This document shows positions 4,793-64,000 of a stretch of DNA of 64,000 nucleotides, piece after piece. The translations under genes and the position numbers were made by a program. The DNA is from an uncultured Caulobacterales bacterium. GTDB taxonomy: Bacteria > Pseudomonadota > Alphaproteobacteria > Caulobacterales > Maricaulaceae. Position 1 is the first letter of the stretch, and the number at the start of each line of letters is the position of its first letter. The stretch covers positions 1 to 64,000 of the forward strand of contig CALFVT010000003.1 of NCBI GenBank assembly GCA_937928165.1, read 5' to 3'. The notes under the pieces are model-generated. The model saw only the letters and a list, made by a program, of their open reading frames with translations. It was not told the DNA's origin and did not search any database.

Positions 4793-5746
4793 ATGAGCGC
4801 AAATATAGACCGCATTCGTCCGACGCCCCTCAGCAATGCCGAAGATGCAGACGTGCGATGGAGCCCCGTAAAATCTTTATGGTGGAGCACCATGTGCCTC
4901 ACTTGGGTGATTGGCGGTTCATTATATTTTTCATGGCAAGCCCTTGGCGTTTTCCTCATGACATCCGCTATTACCCTGTGCGGTGGTCACTCGCTGGGAA
5001 TGCACCGCAAATTTATCCATGATAGTTTTGACTGCCCAAAGTGGCTAGAAATCATCGGCGTTTGGCTCGGAACCCTTGTGGGCCTCGGCGGGCCTTATAC
5101 CATGATTTACACCCACGACATCAGGGATTGGGCCCAGCGACAAGATCGCTGCCATCCCTTTTTATCCCACCAAAGCCCGATGTTAAAAGATTTCATCTGG
5201 CAAATTCACTGCAAGCTTTATTTCCGTAATCCGCCTAATTTTGACTATCCTGACAAGTTAACCCAAAGCCGCTTGCTCGGTTTTATTCAGGCCACCTCTA
5301 TGCTCCAGCAAATCCCCCTTGCTGCCGTTTTATATCTTTGGGGTGGTTTAGGTTTCGTATTTTGGGGCATCTGCGGGCGGGTAAGCGTGTCTATATTCGG
5401 TCACTGGTTGATTGGTTATTTCGCCCATAATCACGGCCCGCGCGATTGGCATGTCCAAAACGCCGCCGTGCAAGGCCATAATGTGAGGTTTTGCGGGCTG
5501 ATAACATTTGGGGAATGTTGGCATAATAATCACCACGCCTTCCCAGACTCAGCACGAATTGGACTTTATAAAGACCAAATTGATCCGGGCTGGTGGGTTT
5601 TATTGGCCTTGAAAAAGCTCGGCCTTGTTTGGGATATGAAAACACCCGAGGATTTAGATTTTAGGGCGGAGCTTTTGCCTGTTAAAGCGAAGAGTTCACA
5701 GCTGCCTATTTATAATCCACAAGCCAAGACGGCAGGTCATCTGTGA
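4793..5746 (+). CDS. Fatty acid desaturase family protein with an altered second histidine box
   Basis: 317-residue integral-membrane di-iron protein of the acyl-CoA desaturase (OLE1/SCD-like) type, expected to insert a double bond in an acyl chain. Box 1 is HRKFIH (71-76) and box 3 is HNNHH (244-248). Box 2, normally HxxHH, reads HDIRD at 108-112 followed by H121 and H126, so the ligand set differs from the textbook enzyme. HNHGPRDWH at 212-220 is an extra histidine cluster. Hydrophobic stretches lie before and between the boxes. The 3' end overlaps the convergent HAD gene by about 40 bases. Confidence 0.8.
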   Translation: MSANIDRIRPTPLSNAEDADVRWSPVKSLWWSTMCLTWVIGGSLYFSWQALGVFLMTSAITLCGGHSLGMHRKFIHDSFDCPKWLEIIGVWLGTLVGLGGPYTMIYTHDIRDWAQRQDRCHPFLSHQSPMLKDFIWQIHCKLYFRNPPNFDYPDKLTQSRLLGFIQATSMLQQIPLAAVLYLWGGLGFVFWGICGRVSVSIFGHWLIGYFAHNHGPRDWHVQNAAVQGHNVRFCGLITFGECWHNNHHAFPDSARIGLYKDQIDPGWWVLLALKKLGLVWDMKTPEDLDFRAELLPVKAKSSQLPIYNPQAKTAGHL

Positions 5747-50573: not shown

Positions 50574-51938
50574 TTAACTCCGCAAAGTTAAGGTCACTAT
50601 TTCTTCGGCCAACGTTGGGTGTACCGCGCAAGTGCGGTCAAAATCCGCCTTCGTCAGTCCTGCCTTCACCGTAATGCCCAAGACTTGTATCAGCTCTCCA
50701 GAGTAATCTCCGACCATATGAATACCAATCACCTGCTCATTATTGCCCATCGTAATTAATTTCATAAAAATACGGTGCTCGGAGCCATTGAGGATATTTT
50801 TCATCGGGCGGAAATCTGTTTGGTAGACATGGATATTATCTGCGCCAAATTTTGCCGCCGCATCTGTTTCCGAATAGCCCACGCTGCCAATCGGCGGCTG
50901 GGTAAATACAGCGCTCGCAATATCGCTATGATCATAAGCGGTCGGATTATCTTTAAACAGGGTTTCAATAAAGGCGGCCCCTTCGCGGATCGCCACAGGA
51001 GTCAGGTTCACCCGGTTGGTCACATCGCCAACTGCATAGATATTTTTGATCGAGCTTTGTGAAAACTCATCCACTTTCACAGCGCCGAGGTCATCCATCT
51101 CTACCCCCGCCTTTTCAAGACCAAGCCCGGCCGTGTGGGGCCGCCGGCCCGTCGCCATCATCACAAGATCTGTGCCGATTTGTGTGCCGTCATCAAAAGT
51201 CACTTTATAGCCGCCGCCGACTTTTGTGATCTCTTTTGGCGAGACATTAAACCGGTTTTCAATGCCGTTAATGTCTTGGAGTTTATTGGCCCGGTCTCTG
51301 ACATCTTCGTCAAAGCCTTTAAGATATTTACTGCCTCTGTAAGCCTGTACGGTTTTCACGCCAAATCCAGCAAAAATACCGGCAAACTCACAGGCAATAT
51401 ACCCCCCGCCAATCACCAACACCCGCTCGGGCAGGCGATCAAGCAGAAAAGCCTCATCAGAGGTGATCGCATATTCTGCGCCCTTAAGGTTCGGCATCCA
51501 AGGCCGCCCGCCGACAGCCACTAAAATCGTCTCGGCGGTAATTTCTTTGCCCGATGTGGTAAGGCGTATCTTGTGGGCATTGACAAATTCCGCCCGCTCC
51601 GTGAAAAAATCAACGCAGTTTTTCTCTAATATACCGGCATAAAGTCCCGATAAGCGGCTCACTTCATCTTGCACGGCGTCGCGGAGCTTCGGCCAATTAA
51701 ACCGGGGGTTTGCATCCACCTCCCAACCATAGCCTTCGGCTTGTTTGACCGATTTCCCATATTCCGCGCCGAAAACGAGATATTTCTTCGGCACGCAGCC
51801 CCGCACAACACAAGTCCCGCCTGGGCGGCTCTCCTCAGCCACCGCAACGCGCTTGCCAAGCTGCCCGGCCAAACGCGCAGAACGCACCCCGCCAGAGCCC
51901 GCGCCAATAATAAAAAGATCATAATCATATTCGGCCAT
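50574..51938 (-). CDS. gor: Glutathione-disulfide reductase
   Basis: 454 residues with FAD loop GAGSGG (12-17), redox-active GGTCVVRGC (C43 and C48), NADPH loop IGGGYIACEFAG and the His-Pro base in CAVHPTLAEE. These match glutathione reductase rather than lipoamide dehydrogenase. It lies just after a lipoprotein gene (one base between start and stop), so is probably in the rpiA transcript. Confidence 0.94.
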   Translation of the reverse strand: MAEYDYDLFIIGAGSGGVRSARLAGQLGKRVAVAEESRPGGTCVVRGCVPKKYLVFGAEYGKSVKQAEGYGWEVDANPRFNWPKLRDAVQDEVSRLSGLYAGILEKNCVDFFTERAEFVNAHKIRLTTSGKEITAETILVAVGGRPWMPNLKGAEYAITSDEAFLLDRLPERVLVIGGGYIACEFAGIFAGFGVKTVQAYRGSKYLKGFDEDVRDRANKLQDINGIENRFNVSPKEITKVGGGYKVTFDDGTQIGTDLVMMATGRRPHTAGLGLEKAGVEMDDLGAVKVDEFSQSSIKNIYAVGDVTNRVNLTPVAIREGAAFIETLFKDNPTAYDHSDIASAVFTQPPIGSVGYSETDAAAKFGADNIHVYQTDFRPMKNILNGSEHRIFMKLITMGNNEQVIGIHMVGDYSGELIQVLGITVKAGLTKADFDRTCAVHPTLAEEIVTLTLRS

Positions 51939-51939
51939 A

Positions 51940-52500
51940 TTACTTCTCTGCCTGTTGTTTTATAAGGGCTTCATATCGCGGAGCGACATGTTCAGTTCCC
52001 CATTTTTCCGCTCCCGGAAGCAGTTTTTGCTGCAGCGATACAGTTTCTTGAGTATATTTTTGCATGATCGGGTTAGTAAATATAGCTGTTAATTGGCTAA
52101 TTTCTTCTGGCGTAAAAACCGCATCATAAACCGCCGCTGTCTTTTCGACGAAAATACTCATTGTTTCATCGGCCGCTTGCACTAAAAGCTTACGGTTTTC
52201 CCGCAAAGCATCGGCCTGTTTCTTATTTCCTGCCGCATCAAAACTATCAATCTGCGCATCTAAGAAAATAAGAATACCCGACTTCGTCGCTGTCGGCACG
52301 CCAATGAGGTATAGAAACTTCTCGGTCTCTGTCTTGCCCGGCAAATCCGCGATATTGACAGGCGCGCCGCCTTTCAGGTCTTCTAATTGCTCGGTCAGGC
52401 TCGTGTTATCAGCCTTCGATTTTGGTTTGCCCCCTTGATTACCGCAGGCCAAAAGCGCCGCCAAAGGCAGCGCGTAAGCCGTCTTAAACCATCTATTCAC
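51940..52500 (-). CDS. DUF2059-like lipoprotein
   Basis: 186 residues from a GTG at 52500 (MNRWFKTAYALPLAALLAC), giving a compact lipoprotein signal with cysteine at 19; GGA lies upstream. An ATG at 52524 also works. Both overlap the rpiA end. The rest is helical, with AVYDAVFTPEEISQLTAIF resembling the DUF2059 pattern of short periplasmic proteins. Function unknown. Coupled between rpiA and gor. Confidence 0.65.
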   Translation of the reverse strand: MNRWFKTAYALPLAALLACGNQGGKPKSKADNTSLTEQLEDLKGGAPVNIADLPGKTETEKFLYLIGVPTATKSGILIFLDAQIDSFDAAGNKKQADALRENRKLLVQAADETMSIFVEKTAAVYDAVFTPEEISQLTAIFTNPIMQKYTQETVSLQQKLLPGAEKWGTEHVAPRYEALIKQQAEK

Positions 52501-53197
52501 GGGTAAGTTCCATAACTTTGGCATGATCGTCTTCACCGACAACAATGGCGCTTGCAATATCAATAAACAGGCCATGTTCCATCACCCCCGGAATTTGGCT
52601 GAGAAGATGCGCTGTATCCGCGGGGGACGGAATAAGGCCGCATTTACAGTCTAAAATATAATGCCCGCCATCCGTAATCAACGGGCCGTCACTGGCTTTA
52701 TTTTGGCGCAAAGTCGTCTGCGCATTTTCACAGCCAGATCGCTTCAGCGCCGCATAAATTTGCTCGGCCGTAATCGCCATACCAAAAGGGTCAACCTCCA
52801 CGGGGAGCGGAAAAGCGCCCAGATTTTCGACCATTTTATTCCCGCCCACAATCACCACCATTTTATCAGAGGCATGGGCGATAATCTTCTCCCGCAGGAG
52901 ACACGCCCCCCCGCCCTTAATCAGGTTAAAGGCCGGGTCCACTTCATCGGCCCCGTCAACGGTCAGGTGAATGCGCGAGACGCGGTCGGCCTCTATGAGC
53001 GGCACGCCGTTTTCACGGGCGCAAGCGGCAGTGGCCTGAGACGTCGGCACCCCTTGAAGTTTAAGCCCGCCCGCGACCTTCTCGCCGAGCATTTCAATAA
53101 AAATTTCCGCCGTCGAGCCAGAGCCCAGACCAATGGTCATGCCGTCTTTGACAAATTCCAGCGCTGCGGAGGCTGCGTTTTCTTTGGCTTGTGACAT
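52493..53197 (-). CDS. rpiA: Ribose-5-phosphate isomerase A
   Basis: 234 residues. It interconverts ribulose- and ribose-5-phosphate in the pentose phosphate pathway. GLGSGSTA near 22, VDGADEVDP near 87 and KGGGACLLREKI near 100 carry the substrate loop and catalytic acids. Overlaps the lipoprotein gene. Normal length. Confidence 0.95.
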   Translation of the reverse strand: MSQAKENAASAALEFVKDGMTIGLGSGSTAEIFIEMLGEKVAGGLKLQGVPTSQATAACARENGVPLIEADRVSRIHLTVDGADEVDPAFNLIKGGGACLLREKIIAHASDKMVVIVGGNKMVENLGAFPLPVEVDPFGMAITAEQIYAALKRSGCENAQTTLRQNKASDGPLITDGGHYILDCKCGLIPSPADTAHLLSQIPGVMEHGLFIDIASAIVVGEDDHAKVMELTRE

Positions 53198-53267
53198 CTT
53201 CTGTCCTTCTTATGTTTTTATTTATTTTGCGGGCTCTCGGCCCGATTAAGGATATGTTTGTAAATTT

Positions 53268-54620
53268 TTATTTTTTAGCTTTACGCTTTTTTTGCGCCGC
53301 ATGATAGCGCGCCGCCCAGCCCTCTTTATTCACTTGCTTAGCCCGCCCGAGGGCAAGCGCGTCAGCCGGCACATTATCAGTGATGACCCCGCCAGAGCCT
53401 AAAAACGCGCCCGCCCCAAGAGTTACTGGTGCAACAAGGGATGAATTTGTCCCAACAAAAACCCCGTCTTCAATAGTGGTAACATGTTTGAAATACCCAT
53501 CATAATTACAAGTAATCGTTCCTGCACCAATATTTACGTCCTTACCTACCACGGCGTCGCCAATATAGGATAAATGATTAATCTTAGAGTTTTTCCCGAT
53601 CTTAGTTTTTTTGGTTTCGACAAAATTACCAGCTTTACTGCCTGCGCCCATCTCCGTGCCGGGCCGCAGCCGCGCAAAAGGGCCAATCTGCGCCGCCTTA
53701 CCAATTTTACTCCCCTCTATGTGGCAGAAAGGATGGATCACCGCATCACTGGCAATATTTACGCCTGGGCCAAAAACAACATTAGCGCCAATATCTGCAT
53801 CCGCCTCTATGACTGTATCATAGGAAAAATACGTGCTGGCCGGGTCGCGTAAAGTGACGCCCTGCGCCATCATTCGCCTGCGCATACGGTTTTGAAAGGC
53901 GGTCTCCGCTTCCGCCAGGTCCGCGCGGCTATTCACCCCTAGCACGTCCTCAGCGGCAGCTTTAACAGCCACGCCTTTTTTTCCATCGCCGCGCAGGATT
54001 TCAATGATATCCGTTAGGTAATACTCCCCTTTGATATTATTATTTCCAACCTGGTCCAAAGCCGAGAACATATCCGCCGCAGAGGCCGCCATGACGCCGC
54101 TATTGCAAAAGCCCACAGCCAGCTCCTCAGGGCTCGCTTCTTTGGCTTCGATAATCGCGGTTAAATCTTCGCCGTCCATAATCAACCGCCCATAAGCGGC
54201 CGGCTCTTCAGGTTCAAAACCAAGCACGCAAACATCCCCGCCGCTTTCAAGAGCGGAGAACACATCTTCTAGGGTGCGGGTTTCAATCAGCGGCGTGTCC
54301 GCGTATAAAACTGCCAAATTACCTTGGAAATCTTTTAGAGCCGCTTTCGCTGCTAATACCGCATGGGCCGTCCCAAGCTGCGGTTCTTGCACGGCAATAG
54401 TGAGGCCAAGGCGTTCCGCATGGGCGCGCACATCTTGGTTGGCTTCCCCGACCACGCAAACAATGGGGGATGCACCCGCAGATCGTGCTAAGTCTGTCAC
54501 CCAATCCATCATCGCCCGTCCACCGACCTTGTGAAGGACTTTGGACGTATGTGACTTCATCCGCGTGCTTTTACCTGCCGCCAAAATAACGGCCGCGCGA
54601 GAGGACTGCTGCTTACCCAT
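53268..54620 (-). CDS. glmU: Bifunctional GlmU: UDP-N-acetylglucosamine pyrophosphorylase / glucosamine-1-phosphate acetyltransferase
   Basis: 450 residues. The N-terminal uridylyltransferase domain has LAAGKSTRM (residues 13-21) and the C-terminal left-handed beta helix contains repeated hexads (IGPFARLRPGTE, NIGAGTITCNYDGYFKH). It supplies UDP-GlcNAc for peptidoglycan and lipopolysaccharide. A lysine-rich C-terminus (KKRKAKK) is present. It is divergent from gph. Confidence 0.95.
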   Translation of the reverse strand: MGKQQSSRAAVILAAGKSTRMKSHTSKVLHKVGGRAMMDWVTDLARSAGASPIVCVVGEANQDVRAHAERLGLTIAVQEPQLGTAHAVLAAKAALKDFQGNLAVLYADTPLIETRTLEDVFSALESGGDVCVLGFEPEEPAAYGRLIMDGEDLTAIIEAKEASPEELAVGFCNSGVMAASAADMFSALDQVGNNNIKGEYYLTDIIEILRGDGKKGVAVKAAAEDVLGVNSRADLAEAETAFQNRMRRRMMAQGVTLRDPASTYFSYDTVIEADADIGANVVFGPGVNIASDAVIHPFCHIEGSKIGKAAQIGPFARLRPGTEMGAGSKAGNFVETKKTKIGKNSKINHLSYIGDAVVGKDVNIGAGTITCNYDGYFKHVTTIEDGVFVGTNSSLVAPVTLGAGAFLGSGGVITDNVPADALALGRAKQVNKEGWAARYHAAQKKRKAKK

Positions 54621-54730
54621 TATAAAACCTTATCTTCCACATAAAACAGGCCTATAGCCGCTATTTTACATTCATCACAACAGAGACTATCCGATCACGA
54701 GGGAAAACACACGATTCGATTGCGCTTTTT

Positions 54731-55408
54731 ATGGAAAATTTTCACCGCCTAAGTTTTTGTTTTGATCTGGACGGAACCTTAATTGATACGGCCCCTGATC
54801 TTGTGCGCGTTCTTAATGAAATCATCGCCGCCGATGACGTCCCTCCGGCCAATTTTGCCCGCGCGCGCAATTATGTCGGTTATGGCTCTATGGCCTTGAT
54901 TAAGCTGGCCTATAAAGATGCAGGGCGGGAGCTTGGCGCAGATAAAGCCGCCGTATTACAAACAGAATTTCTATCGCGATATGCCGATACGATTGACCAA
55001 CTGAGCCGCCCCTTTCCCGGAGTTGTCAAAACCCTTAGCCGCCTTAAATATCACGGCGCAGCCCTGTCTATTTGTACCAATAAACCCGGCTGGCTCGCAC
55101 GGCCCTTGATTGAGAAGCTTGGCCTCACTTCATTATTCACCCGCATCATTGGCTCTGATGATGCGCCGATTAAAAAACCCCATCCCAGCCACGTCTTTAT
55201 GGCCGCAGGTCACCAAGACAATGCGCGCATTATTATGGTCGGGGATAGCCGCCCAGACCTCGGCGCGGCGCAAAATGCGGGCGTAATATCTGTGATGATG
55301 GATTACGGCTATAGCCCAGAGCCCGTGCGCGGCATGGGCGGAGATATCACCCTCTCTCATTTTGCAAATTTACCACAAGCCGTTCAAAGCTACCGAAAAT
55401 CATTATAA
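54731..55408 (+). CDS. gph: Phosphoglycolate phosphatase (HAD)
   Basis: 225 residues with motif I DLDGTLIDTAPD (13-24), motif II ICTNKPGWLA, the conserved Lys in PIKKPHPSH and motif IV VGDSRPDLGAAQNAG. These mark Gph/PGP, which detoxifies 2-phosphoglycolate from DNA repair. It starts 110 bases from glmU, divergently. A terminator of the convergent small gene abuts its stop. Confidence 0.9.
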   Translation: MENFHRLSFCFDLDGTLIDTAPDLVRVLNEIIAADDVPPANFARARNYVGYGSMALIKLAYKDAGRELGADKAAVLQTEFLSRYADTIDQLSRPFPGVVKTLSRLKYHGAALSICTNKPGWLARPLIEKLGLTSLFTRIIGSDDAPIKKPHPSHVFMAAGHQDNARIIMVGDSRPDLGAAQNAGVISVMMDYGYSPEPVRGMGGDITLSHFANLPQAVQSYRKSL

Positions 55409-55435
55409 AAAAAAGCAAACCGGTTAAAGCTTGCT
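55406..55435 (-). terminator. Terminator of the small gene at 55477
   Basis: AGCAA (55414-55418) and TTGCT (55431-55435) form a short stem around a 12-base loop, and on the - strand eight T residues follow. It probably also helps stop gph. Confidence 0.55.
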
Positions 55436-55438
55436 CTT

Positions 55439-55454
55439 AGAGAGAGAGAGAGAG
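55439..55454. repeat. (AG)8 dinucleotide microsatellite
   Basis: Eight perfect AG units lie between the gph terminator and the stop of the small gene. It is not inside a coding frame, so phase-variable translation is not expected. Confidence 0.95.
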
Positions 55455-55476
55455 AAGAACTATGTTTGCGTAAATT

Positions 55477-55677
55477 TTACGCGAAATTTTCGACAGATTT
55501 TGTCGGCACCCCATTAATCATATTCGAGCGCACATCTGTACGCGCGGACCGCATTGAGGCAAGAAATCCCCCTTGAATGAGGTTCACTGTCACCGTCTGG
55601 CCGCGATCTGCCCAATAGGCTTCGATCTGTTCTTTGAGACGCTCTGCGCCTTCCCGTGTGCAATAATCACCTTTCAT
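55477..55677 (-). CDS. Conserved small hypothetical protein (66 aa)
   Basis: A compact soluble protein: GAERLKEQIEAYWADRG, VNLIQGGFLASMRSARTDVR, then SNMINGVPTKSV. I recall similar 60-70 residue proteins with an AYWxxRG...MRSARxDVRSxMxNG pattern in alphaproteobacteria, with no assigned function. Start at 55677. It has a terminator close downstream on the - strand and looks monocistronic. Confidence 0.65.
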   Translation of the reverse strand: MKGDYCTREGAERLKEQIEAYWADRGQTVTVNLIQGGFLASMRSARTDVRSNMINGVPTKSVENFA

Positions 55678-56021
55678 TGCGTTTTCCTTTCTGCAAAGCC
55701 GGCCGCCTGCGTAGCGGTTAACGGCTAGGTATAATCTATAACTTCTAATTATGAGAATGAAGCTGAATACTATCTGAACACATCAGTTTAGTTTATAAAA
55801 GTCTGGTAAGAATAAACTAAAGCAATATAAATTTGCTCTTTAGAGCAGAAAACGCGCCCATTTAATCATAAATTTTGGCATTAACTCCTATATTTAAGGG
55901 GTCAACACAAGAAAAATCTTTGATTTATTGCTAATAATTAAAAAGCTATAAAATTAGATTGTCTTAACTTTTATTATTAATATATAAGTTTTACTTATAA
56001 TTCAATCTGTGGGGGAATTTT
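55678..56021. other. AT-rich divergent promoter region of the XRE regulator
   Basis: 344 bases with no ORF, markedly AT-rich compared with the rest. It separates the small - strand gene from the XRE gene. The dyad TATAAGT/ACTTATA at 55983-55999 lies just before the XRE start. Low GC suggests a curved regulatory region or a different origin. Confidence 0.5.
55983..55999. promoter_or_regulatory. 7-3-7 dyad, candidate operator of the XRE regulator
   Basis: TATAAGT (55983-55989), three bases, ACTTATA (55993-55999): a perfect inverted repeat 22 bases before the start of the XRE gene. Repressors of this class usually bind such dyads at their own promoter. Confidence 0.45.
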
Positions 56022-56573
56022 ATGACAATTTATAATCGGCTTAAACAGATTCGCCTTGAACATAATTTATCGCAAACAGATTTTGCCCAATTAGCCAATG
56101 TTTCCCAGCCAACAATCGCGAATTGGGAGCGCGGCAGTCATATTCCGCGCCGCGAAAAACTAGAAAGCCTTGCAGAGCAACTTGGCTTTGATTTATTATG
56201 GCTCCTGAGCGGGGACGGCGATGCAACGCGGCGCCTCGCCACCCCTTACCTCACCCTTGCCATACATCATGTTCCGATTTATCACTGGCCAGATGGCTCT
56301 CAGGCGATTGAAAGTTTAACCGCCATTGGGCACTTTCCCTTTGCCGCCCGTAAGCCCCCCGCTTTTGCCCTGCGGCGGCCCCGCGCAGGGTCAGTCGGCG
56401 CGCGGGTATGGATTATAGATTCGGATAATAACGCAGAACCCGGCCAGCCTTGTTTAATTATTCGCGGCGGCAATTACCAGATTGAGCCGCACCAAGACAT
56501 CACATATAGGGATGACATTATCGGCCCCGTTCTCGCCAGCGTCTATCTCTACCGCATCACCGATCAAGGATAG
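56022..56573 (+). CDS. XRE-family regulator with a LexA/S24-like C-terminal domain
   Basis: 183 residues behind GGGGGA. N-terminal helix-turn-helix (about 5-60): LSQTDFAQLANVSQPTIANWERG. The C-terminal half (about 80-180) has the beta-rich layout of phage CI/LexA domains (PIYHWPDGSQ, ARVWIIDSD, PCLIIRGGNYQIEP). The peptidase catalytic Ser and Lys are not clearly present, so autocleavage is doubtful. It may be a prophage-like repressor that became a host gene; no phage genes are adjacent. It converges on the lipid operon. Confidence 0.8.
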   Translation: MTIYNRLKQIRLEHNLSQTDFAQLANVSQPTIANWERGSHIPRREKLESLAEQLGFDLLWLLSGDGDATRRLATPYLTLAIHHVPIYHWPDGSQAIESLTAIGHFPFAARKPPAFALRRPRAGSVGARVWIIDSDNNAEPGQPCLIIRGGNYQIEPHQDITYRDDIIGPVLASVYLYRITDQG

Positions 56574-56616: not shown

Positions 56617-57432
56617 TTATGCTGGGTTTGCTGGGTCGCTCATTTTTTCAAAATTAGCATCATTTTGACGAATCGCTGCTTCGAGCCGTGCTTCGGCGTC
56701 TTGGAGATTTTTCTTCGGGTCTTGGTAAAAGGCCGTTAATTTCATGATTTGCAAGAAAGCTTTATTGAGGAAACGGCCCCAGAATTTCATCGGACGGTCA
56801 AAATCATAAAGCAAGATCACCCGCTCTTCATCGGTCTCGTTCCAGACTTCATGCTCATAGGTATCATCAAAGACAAAGATCTCGCCTTCTTTCCACGCGG
56901 TGATTGTATCATCAACCCGGATGCGGCATTTCTCCCGGTCTTTCGGAATAATCAATCCTAAATGAGAGCGTAAAATCCCCTTAGTCACCCCCTTATGGGC
57001 GGGAATGTGATAGCCGGGGGCCAAAATAGAAAACATCGCCGTTTGTAGATTAGGTACATTTTCTAAAATTTCGGCCGTTCGCGGCGTTAGCACGGTGTTT
57101 TTCTCAAGCCGCTGCCCAAACCCATAAAGCACAAAGGTTTTCCAGTTTTGCTCCGTTGACAGGCGATATTGATCTGGAGAGATTTCATGAAAGCTTGGAA
57201 TATTATTACGAAATTTCAAAACCTCCTGCGCTTCGGCGCGGATGACGTCCCAATTATCTGTAAAGGCCGAGAGAAATTCAAAATGCTCATTACCGATTTT
57301 AGGGGTATCTGGCACTTTGGATTGTTTGGCCTGAAAACTCGCAATTTTGCGCACGAGTTTTTTGCCCGTCTTCTTCACAAAGGCGCGGCGGGGGTTCTTA
57401 AGTTGTTTCGGTTTTTCAGCGGCAGGTGCCAT
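56617..57432 (-). CDS. Aspartyl/asparaginyl beta-hydroxylase family dioxygenase (LpxO-like)
   Basis: 271 residues. A basic N-terminus (residues 1-45: KKTGKKLVRKIASFQAK) precedes the double-stranded beta-helix core. Metal and 2-oxoglutarate residues appear in PAHKGVTKGILRSHLGL, FDDTYEHEVWNET and RVILLYDFDR. In Gram-negatives this family includes LpxO and ornithine-lipid hydroxylases, which put a 2-hydroxyl on acyl chains. It is the last gene of the probable lipid operon, 51 bases after cfa, which supports a lipid substrate. Confidence 0.82.
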   Translation of the reverse strand: MAPAAEKPKQLKNPRRAFVKKTGKKLVRKIASFQAKQSKVPDTPKIGNEHFEFLSAFTDNWDVIRAEAQEVLKFRNNIPSFHEISPDQYRLSTEQNWKTFVLYGFGQRLEKNTVLTPRTAEILENVPNLQTAMFSILAPGYHIPAHKGVTKGILRSHLGLIIPKDREKCRIRVDDTITAWKEGEIFVFDDTYEHEVWNETDEERVILLYDFDRPMKFWGRFLNKAFLQIMKLTAFYQDPKKNLQDAEARLEAAIRQNDANFEKMSDPANPA

Positions 57433-57483
57433 AATCTGAACATCCTAAATTATCTTGTTTGCGGCCCTTAAGGCCCCTTAGAG

Positions 57484-58809
57484 TTATGAGCCTTTGGCCT
57501 TTGTTGTCTTTTTAGCAGTTAGTTTCTTAGGGGCAGCCTTTTTAACCAATCCCTTTTTTGGAGCCGCCTTTTTAGCCGGTGCTTTTTTCGGGGCCGTAAT
57601 GGCCTGTTCTGTCTCGCGCATATAATCTCGGGCCATGGGCAGAGCATTGACATCTTTGGCGAGTTGAATTTGGAAATTCATATGTTTACCGTGGCGAAAA
57701 GAGAACTCGGATACGATCAAATAAAACTCCCACATACGGGCGAATTTTTCGTCAAACATCTCAATGACTTTATCGCGGTTCGCTTGAAATCGTTTATCCC
57801 ATTCAAGCAAGGTTTCGGCGTAATGCAGCCGCAAAATTTCCGTATCAGTCACCCAAAGTCCGGCTTTTTCAATCTCCGCAAAAGTTTCTGACAACGCCGG
57901 AGAATAACCGCCGGGGAAGATATATTTGCGAATCCACGCGCCCGTCGTGCCCGGCCCGCCCTTACGGCCAATGGAATGAATCAGTGCGCAGCCATCATCG
58001 GTGAGCAGCTCTCGGATTTTAGAAAAATACTCCAAATAATGAGTAATACCGACATGTTCAAACATGCCCACAGAGACGACTCGGTCAAAAGACTCGGTTA
58101 ATGTACGGTAATCCTGAAGGCGCAAATCGACTTTACCCTCTAGGCCAAGGGTCTTCACCCGATCACGTCCTAAGGCGAGCTGTTCATCAGAGAGGGTCAC
58201 GCCAACAACTTCGCAGCCAAAGGTCTGCGCCAGGTAAATCGCCATACCGCCCCAACCGCAGCCGATATCAAGCACTTTCATGCCCGGCCCCGTCTCTGGC
58301 GTCATATTCAGCTTAGCGGCAATATGCGCCTTTTTTAGGCGCTGTGCTTCCTCAAGGGAGATATCAAGGCGCGGCCAATAAGCGCAGCTATATTGTAAGT
58401 CTTCATCTAAAAACAGGCGGTAAAAATCATTAGACAGATCATAATGATGCTGCACATTTTTACGCGACGCCGATTTTTTATTCCGCTGATGCCAGCGGCG
58501 AATTTTCTTAAGGTAACCTTTAAGCGCTTTTTGCACCGGATGCCCCCGAAGCCCGCCGCGGTTATGGGCAAAGACCTCAAGCAGGTTTCGAATGCCGTCT
58601 TCACAAATCAATGTGCCGTCCATATAGGCCTCGCCGGCACGAAGCTCTGGATTTAAAAATAAACTTTTGTAAAGGGTCTTATCGGTCAGGCGGATAGTTG
58701 CCGACGGATGCCCGCCAGGACCGTGAACATGTTTATTCCCGTCCGCATCAATAATTGTGAGCTGGCCGGTTTTCACAAACCGTTCCATCATAGAGTTTAA
58801 AAGTTTCAT
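57484..58809 (-). CDS. cfa: Cyclopropane-fatty-acyl-phospholipid synthase with lysine/alanine tail
   Basis: 441 residues. SAM-binding motif VLDIGCGWGGMAIYLA near 165, preceded by QHHYDLSNDFYRLFLDEDLQYS, the CFA synthase signature, and followed by GMFEHVGITHYLEYF. It methylenates unsaturated acyl chains of membrane phospholipids. The last 35 residues are almost only Lys, Ala, Pro and Thr with PAKKAAPKKGL-type repeats, absent from typical CFA synthases. It lies 19 bases after the GMC oxidoreductase gene. Confidence 0.9.
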   Translation of the reverse strand: MKLLNSMMERFVKTGQLTIIDADGNKHVHGPGGHPSATIRLTDKTLYKSLFLNPELRAGEAYMDGTLICEDGIRNLLEVFAHNRGGLRGHPVQKALKGYLKKIRRWHQRNKKSASRKNVQHHYDLSNDFYRLFLDEDLQYSCAYWPRLDISLEEAQRLKKAHIAAKLNMTPETGPGMKVLDIGCGWGGMAIYLAQTFGCEVVGVTLSDEQLALGRDRVKTLGLEGKVDLRLQDYRTLTESFDRVVSVGMFEHVGITHYLEYFSKIRELLTDDGCALIHSIGRKGGPGTTGAWIRKYIFPGGYSPALSETFAEIEKAGLWVTDTEILRLHYAETLLEWDKRFQANRDKVIEMFDEKFARMWEFYLIVSEFSFRHGKHMNFQIQLAKDVNALPMARDYMRETEQAITAPKKAPAKKAAPKKGLVKKAAPKKLTAKKTTKAKGS

Positions 58810-58828
58810 TGCCTGTGGCCTTTACGTC

Positions 58829-60430
58829 TTACACTGACAGCTTTTGCCCTAAATGTTCCCCTAAACGCAAGGCCAAAGCCATAATTGTGACTGTTGGATT
58901 GGCCCAGCCCCCTGTTGGGAAGACGCCGCTCCCGGCGACATAGAGGTTTGTGCTTTCAAACAGGCGGCAATCGCGGTCAACGACCCCCGTCTGCGTCGTC
59001 TCGCCCATCCGCAGCCCGCCCATATGGTGATAGCCGCCAATGGGGTGCGCGGAAATCAACGGGTCTGTGCGCCACGCGGCGCTCTCATCCGATAGCCACG
59101 GCGAGGGCAGAACTTCCCCCCAGCCCAGACGTTTATAATCATCAGCCAGCGCCTCCATGAGCACTTTGACGCTGCGGCGATCAATATCCAAGAGCTGCCA
59201 ATCCAGCGCGGCGCGGCGCATGCCCAGCGCGTCAGTTTCGCGGCTTAAGGTAATGCGGCTATCGGGGTTAGGTGCTTGCTCCGCGCGGACAACAGCAAAC
59301 ACGCCGACCTTATCCCCTTGTAGCTTCATGGCGAGCATGGAGGATTTCGGGTCTGTCCATTCAAGCCCTTTAATCGCAAGGCCTTTGGCTTTTTTATACA
59401 GCATACGCCAGAACTTACTGCTCGGCAGGCTATGTTTAAGCTCATGGGTAAGATGACGGTGCATTTCCATCGCCTCCCCTGCGCGGCGGCGGGCAGCGAA
59501 ACTAATGGAGGTATTTAAGATGCCCGCTTCGCGCTGTAACTGCGGGGCGGGACGCATATAGGCGGCATAGCGTTTCCCCGCCACCCGCAAAGCGCGGGGC
59601 AAAACGGTCAAAGCATGAGCTAAATCATTGGGAATAATCTCGCCGCCTCGGGCATGGGGATGTTCCATAAAATAGCGGCCAAGATTATCGGCCTCATTCC
59701 CAAACCCCTTGGGGCGGTTTGGCACGGCGGCCATCAGGATACGCGCTGATTCGATCGCCCCGGCAGCGAGAACAAAACTGCGCGCGCTCACTGTTAGGGT
59801 CTTGCCGTTTAAAGATTTCGCTGTCACCTGCGTAACTTCACCGCCTGAATTGACCGTAATATCTGTGACGGTTGCCCCTAATATGATATCAGCCACTTCA
59901 AGCCCTTGCCGGGATAGATTGGTAAAGCGCTCCCCATCTTCGTCAAACACCCAAAAGTCTGTGTCGAGTTTTTGGGGATCAAACTCCGGTTTTTTTTGCC
60001 CTATGACGTCCCAAAGACGTCCTTCACCGGGGCGCTTTAGTCCCAATGAAGCAAAGGCTTCATCGTAATAGGGGTCAAGTTCATCTTTTTGAAATGGCCA
60101 GCCGCTATGGGCGAGATACTCGCGTTTCTCAAAGTCGATCGGGTCAAGCTCTGCGCAGCGCCCACCCCAAATCGCGGCCGTACCCCCAAAGAGACGCAGG
60201 CGTGAGCTTTCAAGGGGGTAATAATCCTCACCAATATTATCACCAGCGGCAAGGCTTTGGACATCTTTTTGAAAATCCGCTTCGCCGCTTTCAAGGATAA
60301 GGGTTTTAAGATTAAATTTAGATAGCTTTATAGCGAGGCTCTGCCCCGCTACGCCGCCGCCAATAATGCAAACATCCGCCTGCATAGTCGCGGGTAAATC
60401 GGATTGGCTTAAAGAGGCTCTGTGTGCCAC
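58829..60430 (-). CDS. GMC-family FAD oxidoreductase
   Basis: 533 residues starting at a GTG behind AGAAGGGGG. The FAD Rossmann motif is CIIGGGVAGQSLAIKLSK (residues 21-38). The middle domain has GGTAAIWGGRC. The C-terminus contains the GMC signature with HPIGGYHHMGGLRMG (catalytic His region) and VAGSGVFPTGGWANPTVTIMAL. GMC enzymes oxidise alcohols or sugars, but the lipid neighbours suggest a lipid alcohol or headgroup polyol. No signal peptide, so cytosolic. Gap to the next upstream gene is 29 bases. Confidence 0.85.
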   Translation of the reverse strand: MAHRASLSQSDLPATMQADVCIIGGGVAGQSLAIKLSKFNLKTLILESGEADFQKDVQSLAAGDNIGEDYYPLESSRLRLFGGTAAIWGGRCAELDPIDFEKREYLAHSGWPFQKDELDPYYDEAFASLGLKRPGEGRLWDVIGQKKPEFDPQKLDTDFWVFDEDGERFTNLSRQGLEVADIILGATVTDITVNSGGEVTQVTAKSLNGKTLTVSARSFVLAAGAIESARILMAAVPNRPKGFGNEADNLGRYFMEHPHARGGEIIPNDLAHALTVLPRALRVAGKRYAAYMRPAPQLQREAGILNTSISFAARRRAGEAMEMHRHLTHELKHSLPSSKFWRMLYKKAKGLAIKGLEWTDPKSSMLAMKLQGDKVGVFAVVRAEQAPNPDSRITLSRETDALGMRRAALDWQLLDIDRRSVKVLMEALADDYKRLGWGEVLPSPWLSDESAAWRTDPLISAHPIGGYHHMGGLRMGETTQTGVVDRDCRLFESTNLYVAGSGVFPTGGWANPTVTIMALALRLGEHLGQKLSV

Positions 60431-60459
60431 CCACGCCCCCTTCTAAGATTAGGGCTGTT

Positions 60460-61215
60460 TTAAACAACAGCAAAGCGTTTACGGGTCTGGTCTTCGCCGC
60501 CAAAGATAGCGCGGCAGACTTCATAATCTTCCGGCGTATCGAGTTCAGCCCAATTATAACCTTTAATCAGTGTTGTGTTAATCTCAACACCATTTTGTGC
60601 AAGGCCATGTATCGCAGATAAGAACCAACTGCGCGTACCTTCTTTTGTGCGAAGCAGGCGTTCAAGCTCATCCGTGAAAATCTTCGTACCCTCACCCATA
60701 AACCGGAGCATACCGATCGATTCGCCGTTTGTGGCTTCGGCGGAGAGTGTCTTTCCAATCGCCGTCAACCGAGAACCATCTAGCGTGACTTTCATATCAT
60801 CACCGTCATAATGGGTTTTCTGGTCAATCGTCACAGCAATATTAGACTTAGGCGCATCAAGGACGGTTTTAAGGACGCGGGGACTAAATAGCGTATCACC
60901 ATTGATGAGGAGAAAATCCTCTTTCATAGACTCGCGCGCCATCCAGCAAGAGGCCAGATTATCCGCGACCTGAAAAAAAGGATTGAACAAGGTGCGTGTC
61001 TCTGGGCCTTTTTTACGTTTATCAAGCTCGGCCTCAACCATTTCGCTATTAAAACCCGTGACAATCGTTGCAGATGTAATACCCGCCGCATGAAGCGTAT
61101 CAAGCTGCATACCAAGCACAGTTGTCAGGCCAATGGGTAAAAGACATTTTGGAAGATTTGTTGTTAGCGGTAAAAGGCGGGATCCGCGTCCCGCGCTGAG
61201 TATAATAGCGTGCAT
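60460..61215 (-). CDS. Nucleotidyltransferase, LicC/IPCT-like
   Basis: 251 residues from the ATG at 61215 (GGAG upstream; the 61260 start is rejected because it overlaps the HAD gene). The nucleotide motif is LSAGRGSRLLPLT (6-18) and the acidic metal site is LINGDTLFS. The overall form, with NPFFQVADNLASCWMARESM, resembles phosphocholine and inositol-1-phosphate cytidylyltransferases. In its operon it should make the CDP-activated alcohol used by the CDP-alcohol transferase. Exact alcohol unknown. Confidence 0.82.
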   Translation of the reverse strand: MHAIILSAGRGSRLLPLTTNLPKCLLPIGLTTVLGMQLDTLHAAGITSATIVTGFNSEMVEAELDKRKKGPETRTLFNPFFQVADNLASCWMARESMKEDFLLINGDTLFSPRVLKTVLDAPKSNIAVTIDQKTHYDGDDMKVTLDGSRLTAIGKTLSAEATNGESIGMLRFMGEGTKIFTDELERLLRTKEGTRSWFLSAIHGLAQNGVEINTTLIKGYNWAELDTPEDYEVCRAIFGGEDQTRKRFAVV

Positions 61216-61238
61216 GTGTCTGCTCCTATTTTGCTTAT

Positions 61239-61928
61239 CTACCACATTTGGATCGTCCATCCTTGATCCAATGCGTAACGTGATAATTTCTTATCAGGGT
61301 TCACAGGCACGCATATATGAGCAGCATTGAACATAGCAAGGTCAGAAATGCTGTCTGAATAAAAAGTGACTTTTGTGTGATATTGTTTCAATATAAGGTT
61401 TTCACTGATTAGTCTATTGAATCTATTCACCTTTTCATGTGAATAACAATTCGGCGTTTTGAAGTTTAATTTCAATTTGTTGCAATTATCATAGTCCATT
61501 TCAGTCGACAGCACATAATCAAAGCCAAGCGCCTCCCCCATAGGTTTTGCAATCACATCAACGGCGGCGCTGATAATAATTAATTTATCTTTGCGGGATT
61601 TATGAAACTCAATAAGTTTCAATGCGCCCGGGCGCAAACCTGTGCGTAGTTCTTTTTGTGCAAAGTCATAGCCTCTTTGTTTAACCCTGCCGCGCGGCGC
61701 ATCTTTCATCGCCCAGCGCATCATGGACAGTTTAACATCCACACGCGGACATTTGCCCCGCTTATAGGCGAGCTGCGTCCAGCCTGCAGTCAATAATAAC
61801 GGCAGCCATACATGCGGGCGAAATTTGACCCATTGCCAAATAAATCGCCCCCATGTGCCGCGCCGCGTTAAGGTATAATCAAGATCAAAAACAGCCAATC
61901 CGGGCGGATGAGGTGGCGCCGTGCTCAT
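61239..61928 (-). CDS. HAD-IB family phosphatase
   Basis: 229 residues starting at 61928, where the ATG overlaps the stop of the CDP-alcohol transferase gene by four bases (ATGA). Motif I is FDLDYTLTRRG, motif II ISAAVDV, the motif III Lys lies in SHEKVNRF, and motif IV is FYSDSISDLAMF. A SerB-like cap is present. In this context it may dephosphorylate the transferase product, as PGP phosphatases do. It precedes the nucleotidyltransferase by 23 bases. Confidence 0.85.
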   Translation of the reverse strand: MSTAPPHPPGLAVFDLDYTLTRRGTWGRFIWQWVKFRPHVWLPLLLTAGWTQLAYKRGKCPRVDVKLSMMRWAMKDAPRGRVKQRGYDFAQKELRTGLRPGALKLIEFHKSRKDKLIIISAAVDVIAKPMGEALGFDYVLSTEMDYDNCNKLKLNFKTPNCYSHEKVNRFNRLISENLILKQYHTKVTFYSDSISDLAMFNAAHICVPVNPDKKLSRYALDQGWTIQMW

Positions 61929-63037
61929 CCAGCCGGATCCATCCAAGAGCTTATTCTCCCGCGCTTAAAGCTTGCGGTTATAACAACGCCAATATTAAAG
62001 GCGATACACAGCCATGTCCAAATTGCAACGGCGTAAAACCCTCCCCGCCCTGCCTGGGGCCACATTCCCATAAGCATGATACCGATCATAAAAATAAACA
62101 TATTTGGGTTTCGCCGAGCAATAATAAAGCGCAGGGCCGAATTAATTGGCCGCCAAACATGGATATGAAATCCGTGCTGCGCGATAAATATGCCCTCAAT
62201 AATACGGTCAATCACATAACCGGCCAAGATCGCAACAAGGGCAAATGTCATTGGGTCAGCCGTAAAGTTTGGCCATGCAAAGACGCCGCCGAGCCCGATA
62301 AACCACGCCCAATACCAAAAGGGCGGGTGAATAAGATCTATACCATGATCGTAAACATTACCCCAAGCAGAAAAGGTCATAGTTGTCCGGGCGAGCTTTC
62401 CGTCCACCGTATCTAAAAATGTCATGACCCAACCTGTAGCAAAACCTAGCGCCCATTGCCCTGTCCAGAAAAAATATAGCGCCGCAAACATTAAAATAAG
62501 ACCGATTGTTGTCACCATATTCGGCGTGAGGTGAAGATTTGCACAAAGCCGCGTGACATAATAGGCAGGACGCGGCCAAATAAATTTTGTGACAAAATCC
62601 GTAATACCCTTATAGGATCCGGCAAATTGCGTCTTCATAATATCATCTGCAGGGGTTACGCGGCTATCGAGGGCATAAGGACGCTCAGACTTTCGTAAGG
62701 CTTTATCATAGGCCGATACAAGGTCTTGCGGGCGGACTATGCGTAAGTCTCCAGCCGCATCCGCTGGCTGCCCAATAAGCTGCGCAGCCCCGCCGGCAAC
62801 CCCAATGATAAGGCCGCCTTGCACTAAAACTATGGACTCGCAGGCGGTAAAAGCTTTGAGAAGATTATTCGATAATATAAAATTAGCGTCAAAGGCGTGA
62901 CTCGCCCCGACTTCATCATGGGTGACACCAAGACCAAATTTTTTAAAGGCGCGGGTCTGCCATTCCATCAAAGACAGTCCCCAAAGCCGCGCTGTCGGCG
63001 CACCGATTAAAAAAACCTGCCGATTAGATTGCAACAT
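61925..63037 (-). CDS. CDP-alcohol phosphatidyltransferase with N-terminal nucleotidyltransferase-like domain
   Basis: 370 residues. The transferase signature D-x2-DG-x2-AR-x8-G-x3-D-x3-D is fully present (DTVDGKLAR, eight residues, then GNVYDHGID, around 210-235) and lies between membrane helices. The first 150 residues are soluble (FLIGAPTARLWGLS, AFKKFGLGVTHDEVG), resembling the degenerate nucleotidyltransferase domain of IPCT/DIPP synthase fusions, but no active-site motif is evident. It joins an alcohol phosphate to a lipid or CDP-lipid. Five bases after the flippase gene. Confidence 0.85.
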   Translation of the reverse strand: MLQSNRQVFLIGAPTARLWGLSLMEWQTRAFKKFGLGVTHDEVGASHAFDANFILSNNLLKAFTACESIVLVQGGLIIGVAGGAAQLIGQPADAAGDLRIVRPQDLVSAYDKALRKSERPYALDSRVTPADDIMKTQFAGSYKGITDFVTKFIWPRPAYYVTRLCANLHLTPNMVTTIGLILMFAALYFFWTGQWALGFATGWVMTFLDTVDGKLARTTMTFSAWGNVYDHGIDLIHPPFWYWAWFIGLGGVFAWPNFTADPMTFALVAILAGYVIDRIIEGIFIAQHGFHIHVWRPINSALRFIIARRNPNMFIFMIGIMLMGMWPQAGRGGFYAVAIWTWLCIAFNIGVVITASFKRGRISSWMDPAG

Positions 63038-63042
63038 AAAGC

Positions 63043-64000
63043 TTATCCCTCCGACGCCTTTACGCGCTGCTCTAATGTATATTTAGCCATGAGTGTGACG
63101 ATGACAACGGTGAAACCATTCCCAATTAGAACCGCCCAAGCCGCCGCCATAGGCCCAATAATTTTAGCCATAATAAGAAGCGCGGCAATATAGATAAACA
63201 CCCCTGCCCCCCGCCCCATAATCGCCCGCTCCGGGCAATCAGCAGCAAAAAACACCGGATAAAGCGGGGCCGCAGCCCCCATTAATGCGGCGGCCGGGAC
63301 TAATATTGTAGCAAAGGGAATAGCCGCTTCAAAACCTTCAATTTTAAGAAGCTGCAAGATAGCCTCGCCAAAGATAAAAAAAGCGGCGGACATGAAACAG
63401 CCAAATAATAATAAAATCGTCGCCGCCCGCGTCGTTAACCGCCAAATCTTATCGACCTGCCCTTCGGATACCATACGCGCAAGCTCAGGGTAAATCACTT
63501 GGTCTAGCAATTTAAATCCTTCTGATAAGAGTTTTGCAACTTCCTCTGCGATCTTATAGAGCGCATTCCAAACAGGACCAAATATAGCAAAAACAAGCAA
63601 GGACGGCAGATGAAGCGTGGCCGCTCCAAGTGTCGCATCAATATTAGATTTAAACACAAACGCCCATAGCCCTTTGCGTTCTGGCTTAAAGAATTTCACC
63701 TTAGCCCTTATGACATGACCAAGCATATTGCGGCGTTTCAGCTCAATAATCGCCATAACCGGCAAGAAAATATAAGCGCAAAACGAGCCTGCAAACCATG
63801 CTAGTAAAAATCCTTCAAATCCGGCTCCTGTAAGCGCCGCAATGACAGCGCCAATAAGGCGTATAATCGGCATAATTACCGCTTTGACGGCTAAAACATT
63901 GAACTTATCAAACAGCCTAAAAATCCCGACCGATGCGCCGCGTTGGCGAATTAAAACCAAGATACAATATAAGGTGAGATAATGTTTAAATTGCTCAAGG
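63043..64000 (-). CDS. Oligosaccharide/lipid flippase (Wzx/MATE-like), partial
   Basis: The frame stays open to the right edge with no stop, so the gene continues beyond 64000; a possible start at 63960 (TTG) is rejected. About 318 residues of a polytopic protein are seen, with at least eight hydrophobic spans such as IIRLIGAVIAALTGA, FLLAWFAGSFCAYIFL, ATILLLFGCFMSAAFF and AAWAVLIGNGFTVVIVTL. This fits the MVF/Wzx flippase superfamily, which moves lipid-linked intermediates across the inner membrane. First seen gene of the lipid operon. Confidence 0.78.
   Translation of the reverse strand, partial: LEQFKHYLTLYCILVLIRQRGASVGIFRLFDKFNVLAVKAVIMPIIRLIGAVIAALTGAGFEGFLLAWFAGSFCAYIFLPVMAIIELKRRNMLGHVIRAKVKFFKPERKGLWAFVFKSNIDATLGAATLHLPSLLVFAIFGPVWNALYKIAEEVAKLLSEGFKLLDQVIYPELARMVSEGQVDKIWRLTTRAATILLLFGCFMSAAFFIFGEAILQLLKIEGFEAAIPFATILVPAAALMGAAAPLYPVFFAADCPERAIMGRGAGVFIYIAALLIMAKIIGPMAAAWAVLIGNGFTVVIVTLMAKYTLEQRVKASEG

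Follow-up and report, generated by a model that had tools for sequence, protein, structure and literature searches.

Which lipid is made by the genes at the end of the 64,000-nucleotide stretch analysed here (the window), i.e., positions 1 to 64,000 of contig CALFVT010000003.1 from an uncultured Caulobacterales bacterium (GCA_937928165.1)? Between 56617 and 64000, seven open reading frames follow each other on the minus strand with spacings of 5, -4, 23, 29, 19 and 51 bases, from which a first-pass annotation had inferred a seemingly undescribed pathway for a polar lipid headed by inositol, choline or another polyol. The logic proposed there, CDP activation, transfer, dephosphorylation and flipping, perhaps complemented by acyl decoration of a polar lipid, is right. 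The pathway can hardly be called undescribed, however, as its core genes look orthologous to those of the Caulobacter locus for ceramide diphosphoglycerate (CPG2) and ceramide genes are present in the genome. Based on sequence matches, gene order, active-site conservation and this co-presence of ceramide genes, the operon very probably represents the headgroup half of the CPG2 pathway, for which published work on Caulobacter provides the CpgB and CpgD activities as well as mutant lipids. What is seen is a known pathway in a cut window, varied by a proposed substitution of HAD for the usual phosphatase and by accessory genes for an oxidase, a hydroxylase and a cyclopropane synthase.

Comparison with the Caulobacter CPG2 locus

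Pfam agrees with the domain assignments of the first-pass annotation (Asp_Arg_Hydrox, E 9e-54; CMAS, 5e-92; GMC_oxred_C, 2e-23; NTP_transferase, 4e-12; HAD, 5e-28; CDP-OH_P_transf, 1e-7), the flippase excepted, as its part inside the window shows no Pfam match and a weak O-unit-flippase-like NCBIfam match (E 0.003). Genes and spacings of the seven-gene operon likewise stand, the latter with ATG starts of the phosphatase and the nucleotidyltransferase as given in Table 1, but the run is longer, since the window end truncates the flippase and three more same-strand genes precede it. The window is the start of a contig of 129,783 bases (G000:C3, with G000 being the window's own genome), where the whole flippase past the window edge is joined on the same strand by a MobA-like nucleotidyltransferase (253 residues) and, further on, by a GNAT-like protein (382 residues; Pfam E 0.002, below cut-off) and a DUF2141 protein (210 residues). 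Divergent from these genes, LptF, LptG, a DAGK-type lipid kinase and a CpgC-like 320-residue protein without any listed Pfam or NCBIfam match are encoded.

In Caulobacter crescentus, the CPG/CPG2 phosphosphingolipid region extends over CC_1152-CC_1168 (PMC11324152; for CpgD, PMC12275187 and PMC13228409; these papers are cited here for excerpts of their text). The locus of Caulobacter vibrioides DSM 9893 (L097), whose gene order is that reported for CC_1152-CC_1166 (PMC11324152), served as reference for all identities of pathway genes, and names were given by order and best match, with no reciprocal test. Nine genes of the window's locus, three of them inside the window, match this reference, i.e., CpgD (48%), the CC_1153-like protein (38%), the CerS-like protein (42%), LptG (23%), LptF (30%), CpgA (41%), CpgB (30%), CpgC (34%) and the flippase (29%). 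Moreover, spt (48%), cerR (38%) and aasR (44%) are found together on another contig (G000:C23), and between spt and cerR lies an 81-residue open reading frame which by eye is acyl-carrier-like and thus likely acpR. Once the operon's cerS-like gene is added, the dihydroceramide gene set appears complete. The locus differs from that of Caulobacter in this separate position of the ceramide genes, in a HAD-IB phosphatase gene between cpgA and cpgD, and in the addition of GMC, Cfa and OlsC-like genes.

For tracing the cluster in other genomes, 80 named loci were obtained with an alignment of 11 CpgA sequences as the best 80 of 585 confirmed relatives, and neighbouring genes were matched at E<=1e-4, with counts lowered by short contigs. 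A CpgD-like and a second nucleotidyltransferase are present in 71 loci each, LptF in 70, the CerS-like protein in 69, LptG in 64, and both the kinase and the 320-residue protein in 61; counts for the genes inside the window are listed in Table 1. Outside the Hellea-type group there are 58 named loci (L051-L108), for which the transferase was the only bait, and 51 of them have the nucleotidyltransferase near it. In contrast, eight genes chosen as controls from the surrounding sequence (glmU, rpiA, gor, pgp, HTH, DAHP synthase, ispG and M28 peptidase) are absent from all 58. Hence, the clustering is not due to chance. Control genes were found at 16 loci of the 80 at most, all within L029-L050 (Hellea, Litorimonas and uncultured Caulobacterales). 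Three of the eight are weak controls, as in the window's layout the 10-kb flank does not reach DAHP synthase and M28 peptidase and has ispG at its edge, so that the zero counts of ispG and M28 peptidase among the 80 loci refer to genes at or beyond the flank covered.

Several points weigh against this assignment. CC_ numbers were attached to the genes of the reference by order and family, not by accession, and the neighbourhoods cover about 10 kb on each side. Of 61 genomes, 14 have a CpgA hit, counting that of the window, and two of these hits are weak (G005 and G026), at loci without most of the cluster. At the locus of G001 (L019), the 20 kb of sequence retrieved contain no cpgD match, and the CpgA copy of G020 carries an internal stop. 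Accordingly, the CPG2 pathway is patchy even within the family.

Table 1. Genes of the minus-strand operon in the window; loci refer to the set of 80.
Predicted product	Position	Strand	Basis
Lipid flippase, CC_1166-like	63043..64000, cut by window end; complete at L002:3044-4417 (457 residues)	-	29% identity to L097; match in 53/80 loci
CpgA-like CDP-alcohol phosphotransferase, N-terminal domain as in AF2299	61925..63037	-	PF01066; 41% identity to L097; predicted fold
HAD-IB phosphatase, proposed CC_1158 stand-in	61239..61946, likely ATG start 61928	-	TIGR01490; 43/80 loci
CpgD-like CTP:phosphoglycerate cytidylyltransferase	60460..61260, likely ATG start 61215	-	47-48% identity to L097; active-site residues
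GMC oxidoreductase, accessory	58829..60430	-	Pfam; 6/80 loci, always adjoining cpgD
Cfa-type cyclopropane synthase, accessory	57484..58809	-	Pfam/NCBIfam; 14/80 loci
Accessory OlsC/LpxO-like hydroxylase, proposed to 2-hydroxylate the ceramide acyl chain	56617..57432	-	OlsC model; 22/80 loci

Among the neighbouring genes, the DUF2141 gene (L002:6399-7031, minus strand) has the cerS-like gene on one side and the divergent lptF on the other, and a match at 51 of the 80 loci. A HIT-domain gene at the CC_1157 position of the reference (L097:8452-8889, minus strand) shows matches in 55 loci, L097 included, and may be a pathway member, while the gene at this position is judged probably unrelated in PMC11324152. 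The gor, rpiA, glmU, phosphoglycolate-phosphatase-like and HTH genes of the window (50574-56573) have matches accompanying the CPG2 operon in 9 to 16 loci, exclusively in L029-L050.

Headgroup enzymes and proposed pathway

CpgD has been characterized as CDP-glycerate synthase (PMC12275187; preprint PMC13228409). Thirteen residues named in these papers were checked in six sequences (L097, the window protein and four relatives), where the numbering of L097 was assumed to be that of the papers, and every named residue type fits. Eleven are invariant (G12, R16, K26, N90, N110, G111, D112, M147, K161, S170 and W201), and in the window protein the other two are conservatively changed, T93 to Ser and T88, a backbone contact, to Ala. 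As the active site is kept, CDP-glycerate is the predicted product, and the lipid head is most likely phosphoglycerate. The inositol or choline head was consequently dropped as a candidate, the nucleotidyltransferase carrying the active site of a CDP-glycerate synthase.

The DG-x2-AR motif of the transferase, correctly described as intact in the first-pass annotation, is part of a full CDP-alcohol signature (D-x2-D-G-x2-A-R-x8-G-x3-D-x3-D, CpgA residues 209-234) that is invariant in 21 aligned sequences. The predicted fold (predicted local distance difference test, pLDDT, 89), N-terminal domain included, has AF2299 of Archaeoglobus, IPCT-DIPPS and actinobacterial PIP synthases as neighbours, whereas identity is as low as 14-20% among the 19 best matches and both donor and acceptor are predicted to differ. 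The counterparts of CpgA, CpgB and CpgC lie in the same neighbourhood. For CpgC, whose profile found no good match among PDB sequences, the model of the homologue from a Hellea locus (L030; pLDDT 91) shows a fold like that of the CDP-diacylglycerol synthase Tam41 with CTP (E 1.7e-8), which supports the idea that CC_1161 activates ceramide phosphate (PMC11324152).

The order of enzymes after ceramide phosphate is left unresolved in PMC11324152. For the present organism, we infer the following activities, including the CDP-ceramide step, the role of the HAD enzyme and all tailoring. Dihydroceramide would be made by Spt, AcpR, AasR and CerR together with the GNAT-like CerS, and be phosphorylated by the lipid kinase CpgB to ceramide-1-phosphate, which is then probably activated to CDP-ceramide by the Tam41-fold CpgC. 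The first phosphoglycerate would be added by an as yet unnamed transferase. CpgD is predicted to form CDP-glycerate from CTP and 2-phosphoglycerate, from which CpgA would move phosphoglycerate onto ceramide phosphoglycerate (CPG), yielding CPG2 and CMP. Dephosphorylation would be catalyzed by the HAD-IB enzyme, as by the unrelated CC_1158 in Caulobacter, and outward movement of the lipid by the flippase and the LptF/LptG pair. Finally, the OlsC-like enzyme probably introduces a 2-hydroxyl group into the acyl chain, and Cfa and GMC would act as optional tailoring enzymes.

Alternatively, the product of CDP-polyol transfer could be a phospholipid headed by inositol, choline or another polyol. 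The nucleotidyltransferase indeed has a CTP:phosphocholine cytidylyltransferase as best PDB sequence match, the bifunctional IPCT-DIPPS model matches it with 55 bits and the transferase with 30 bits, and the fold neighbours of the latter include PIP synthases. These bit scores, however, are far under the curated cut-off of 580, and among 25 of 30 families listed there is no phosphocholine model. Given that the nucleotidyltransferase is 47-48% identical to its Caulobacter counterpart CpgD and retains 11 of the 13 residues, and that its neighbours are CPG2 and ceramide genes, a polyol head appears very improbable.

HAD-IB phosphatase and the CC_1158 position

New in the present analysis is the HAD-IB phosphatase following cpgA in loci without a CC_1158-type phosphoesterase. 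The window protein just exceeds the cut-off of TIGR01490 (98.6 versus 98.3 bits), and its residues D21, D23, T25, K172, D198 and D202 are invariant in 17 sequences. The gene at the CC_1158 position of the reference encodes a calcineurin-like phosphoesterase, to which the HAD enzyme shows no significant similarity. Over the 80 loci, HAD is found in 43, the CC_1158 type in 31, neither in 6 and both in none, and the same exclusion is seen when only the 52 loci with 20 kb or more are counted (26, 24, 2 and 0, respectively). Thus, none of the 43 HAD loci has a CC_1158-type gene, a negative that covers the loci and not the remainder of the window's own genome. In all 43, HAD stands after cpgA in the same orientation, with at most 139 bases between the BLAST matches, and in 42 cpgD comes at most 136 bases after HAD, the remaining case being a contig end. 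This arrangement is shared by Hellea-type, Parvularcula, Henriciella, Hyphomonas, Roseovarius, Nitrotoga and Kiloniellales loci.

According to PMC11324152, a CC_1158 mutant of C. crescentus still makes CPG2, albeit somewhat less, so that lack of CC_1158 would not bar membership in the pathway. The same source reports that Hyphomonas neptunium and other bacteria have no CC_1158 orthologue. Four Hyphomonas loci (L056, L057, L065 and L066) carry the HAD gene, with H. neptunium itself not being in the locus set. In the main text of that paper, the terms 'haloacid', 'GMC', 'oxidoreductase', 'cyclopropane' and 'OlsC' are not mentioned, and in the openly licensed literature nothing was found that joins ceramide phosphoglycerate with a phosphatase. 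The HAD-IB gene offers a concrete candidate for the CC_1158 step.

Accessory genes

OlsC-like, Cfa and GMC genes are patchy add-ons that may tailor the CPG2 lipid. On a CpgA tree of 81 rows built by a quick method, their presence changes eight, six and five times, respectively. Scattering among relatives, considered in the first-pass annotation to speak against its operon, is therefore seen in part: the core stays mostly together, while these three genes come and go, and, as mentioned, cpgD is missing from the neighbourhood fetched for G001.

The hydroxylase has the Asp_Arg_Hydrox domain over its full length and scores better with the OlsC than with the LpxO model (229 versus 142 bits), although this is about half of the OlsC equivalog cut-off (450 bits). 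OlsC-like genes occur in three layouts, i.e., after cpgD or cfa in Hellea-type loci, after cpgD and two genes that are Lpt-like by eye in Roseovarius (L062; same gap in three more loci), and before an apparent ABC transporter (by eye) and cerS in L083 (same gap in L092). PF13444, which we take to be the ornithine-lipid acyltransferase domain, has no match in the window's genome and matched one of 12 genome handles, the Roseovarius genome of L062. Hence, the OlsC-like enzyme of the window's genome needs a substrate other than ornithine lipid, a candidate ruled out for this genome only. An organism free of lipopolysaccharide (LPS) can likewise be dismissed, as LpxC is encoded in the window's genome and under all 12 handles, which represent 10 distinct genomes (G011/G124 and G036/G125 share coordinates). 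Among the openly licensed papers listed, titles and abstract starts did not reveal a bacterial ceramide hydroxylase of the OlsC-like kind. That the OlsC-like enzyme replaces the Caulobacter hydroxylase CC_0202 is a further conceivable reading. Of two desaturase-family genes of Caulobacter, either of which may be CC_0202, one (G123:C8) has relatives in four OlsC-like carriers too (G011, G027, G036 and G018) and none among the five places compared in the window's genome, and the other yielded no row in this comparison, which covered part of the FA_desaturase places.

For the GMC enzyme, glucose and fructose dehydrogenases are the nearest solved sequences, and H468, H469 and N511, presumably the catalytic His/Asn residues, are invariant in seven sequences. 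Besides the window, the gene adjoins cpgD in two Hellea, three Henriciella and one Rhodobacteraceae locus, i.e., in all six GMC loci among the 80. It lies away from cpgA in G001, G003, G078 and G356, in G078 beside a CPG2-type flippase, and relatives outside CPG2 loci are found in G001, G003, G356 and G298 (L178, L180, L181 and L182). By eye, a UvrA-like gene is located upstream of the GMC gene of G001 (L125). In a class-wide draw of 387 genomes, with at most three candidates scored per genome, three reach E<=1e-100, the window's included, and another of them, G298 with a 39% GMC, has no CpgA found. CpgA is present in five of six GMC genomes tested. Among 37 genomes of the same family, it occurs in all three with GMC versus 7 of 34 others (Fisher 0.015, relatedness uncorrected; the weak hits of G005 and G026 are left out, and including them gives 9 of 34 and about 0.03).

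How far these additions belong to the pathway has to be weighed. The HAD enzyme could be a general phosphatase standing between cpgA and cpgD by descent only, as HAD versus CC_1158 type changes just once on the CpgA tree, where 75 rows carry a state, and the CC_1158 mutant still makes CPG2, in somewhat lower amount. The strict position after cpgA in all 43 loci, across the groups named above, and the invariant catalytic motifs make this somewhat unlikely. Alternatively, with the core being CPG2, the GMC, Cfa and OlsC-like genes might be merely adjacent and act on bulk phospholipid, the usual substrate of Cfa, or on lipid A, a reading in line with their low counts, the repeated changes on the tree and the presence of LpxC. 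The recurrence of OlsC-like genes at CPG2 loci in three layouts and the GMC position beside cpgD or, in G078, the flippase speak against it; still, mere adjacency is a real possibility, falling short of being probable. A tailored CPG2 not yet described would combine oxidation of a lipid hydroxyl by GMC (the free primary alcohol of a phosphoglycerate unit or the sphingoid 3-OH), 2-hydroxylation of the amide-linked chain by the OlsC-like enzyme, its cyclopropanation by Cfa and replacement of CC_1158 by HAD-IB. As a complete set, this appears unlikely. Against the proposed pathway as a whole, it also counts that the HAD loci, going back to one replacement event, are not independent, that lipid A is an alternative hydroxylase substrate and that in the Roseovarius genome of L062, which has PF13444, the OlsC-like enzyme may act on ornithine lipid. 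Within the CPG2 assignment, the accessory genes are a hint that this outer-membrane sphingolipid, on which survival of Caulobacter without LPS partly depends (PMC12275187), may be chemically diversified in marine relatives.

Elsewhere in the window, a FA_desaturase-family match is located at 4931-5548 on the plus strand within an open frame of 335 residues, with a relative of 39% identity on contig C10 of the same genome.

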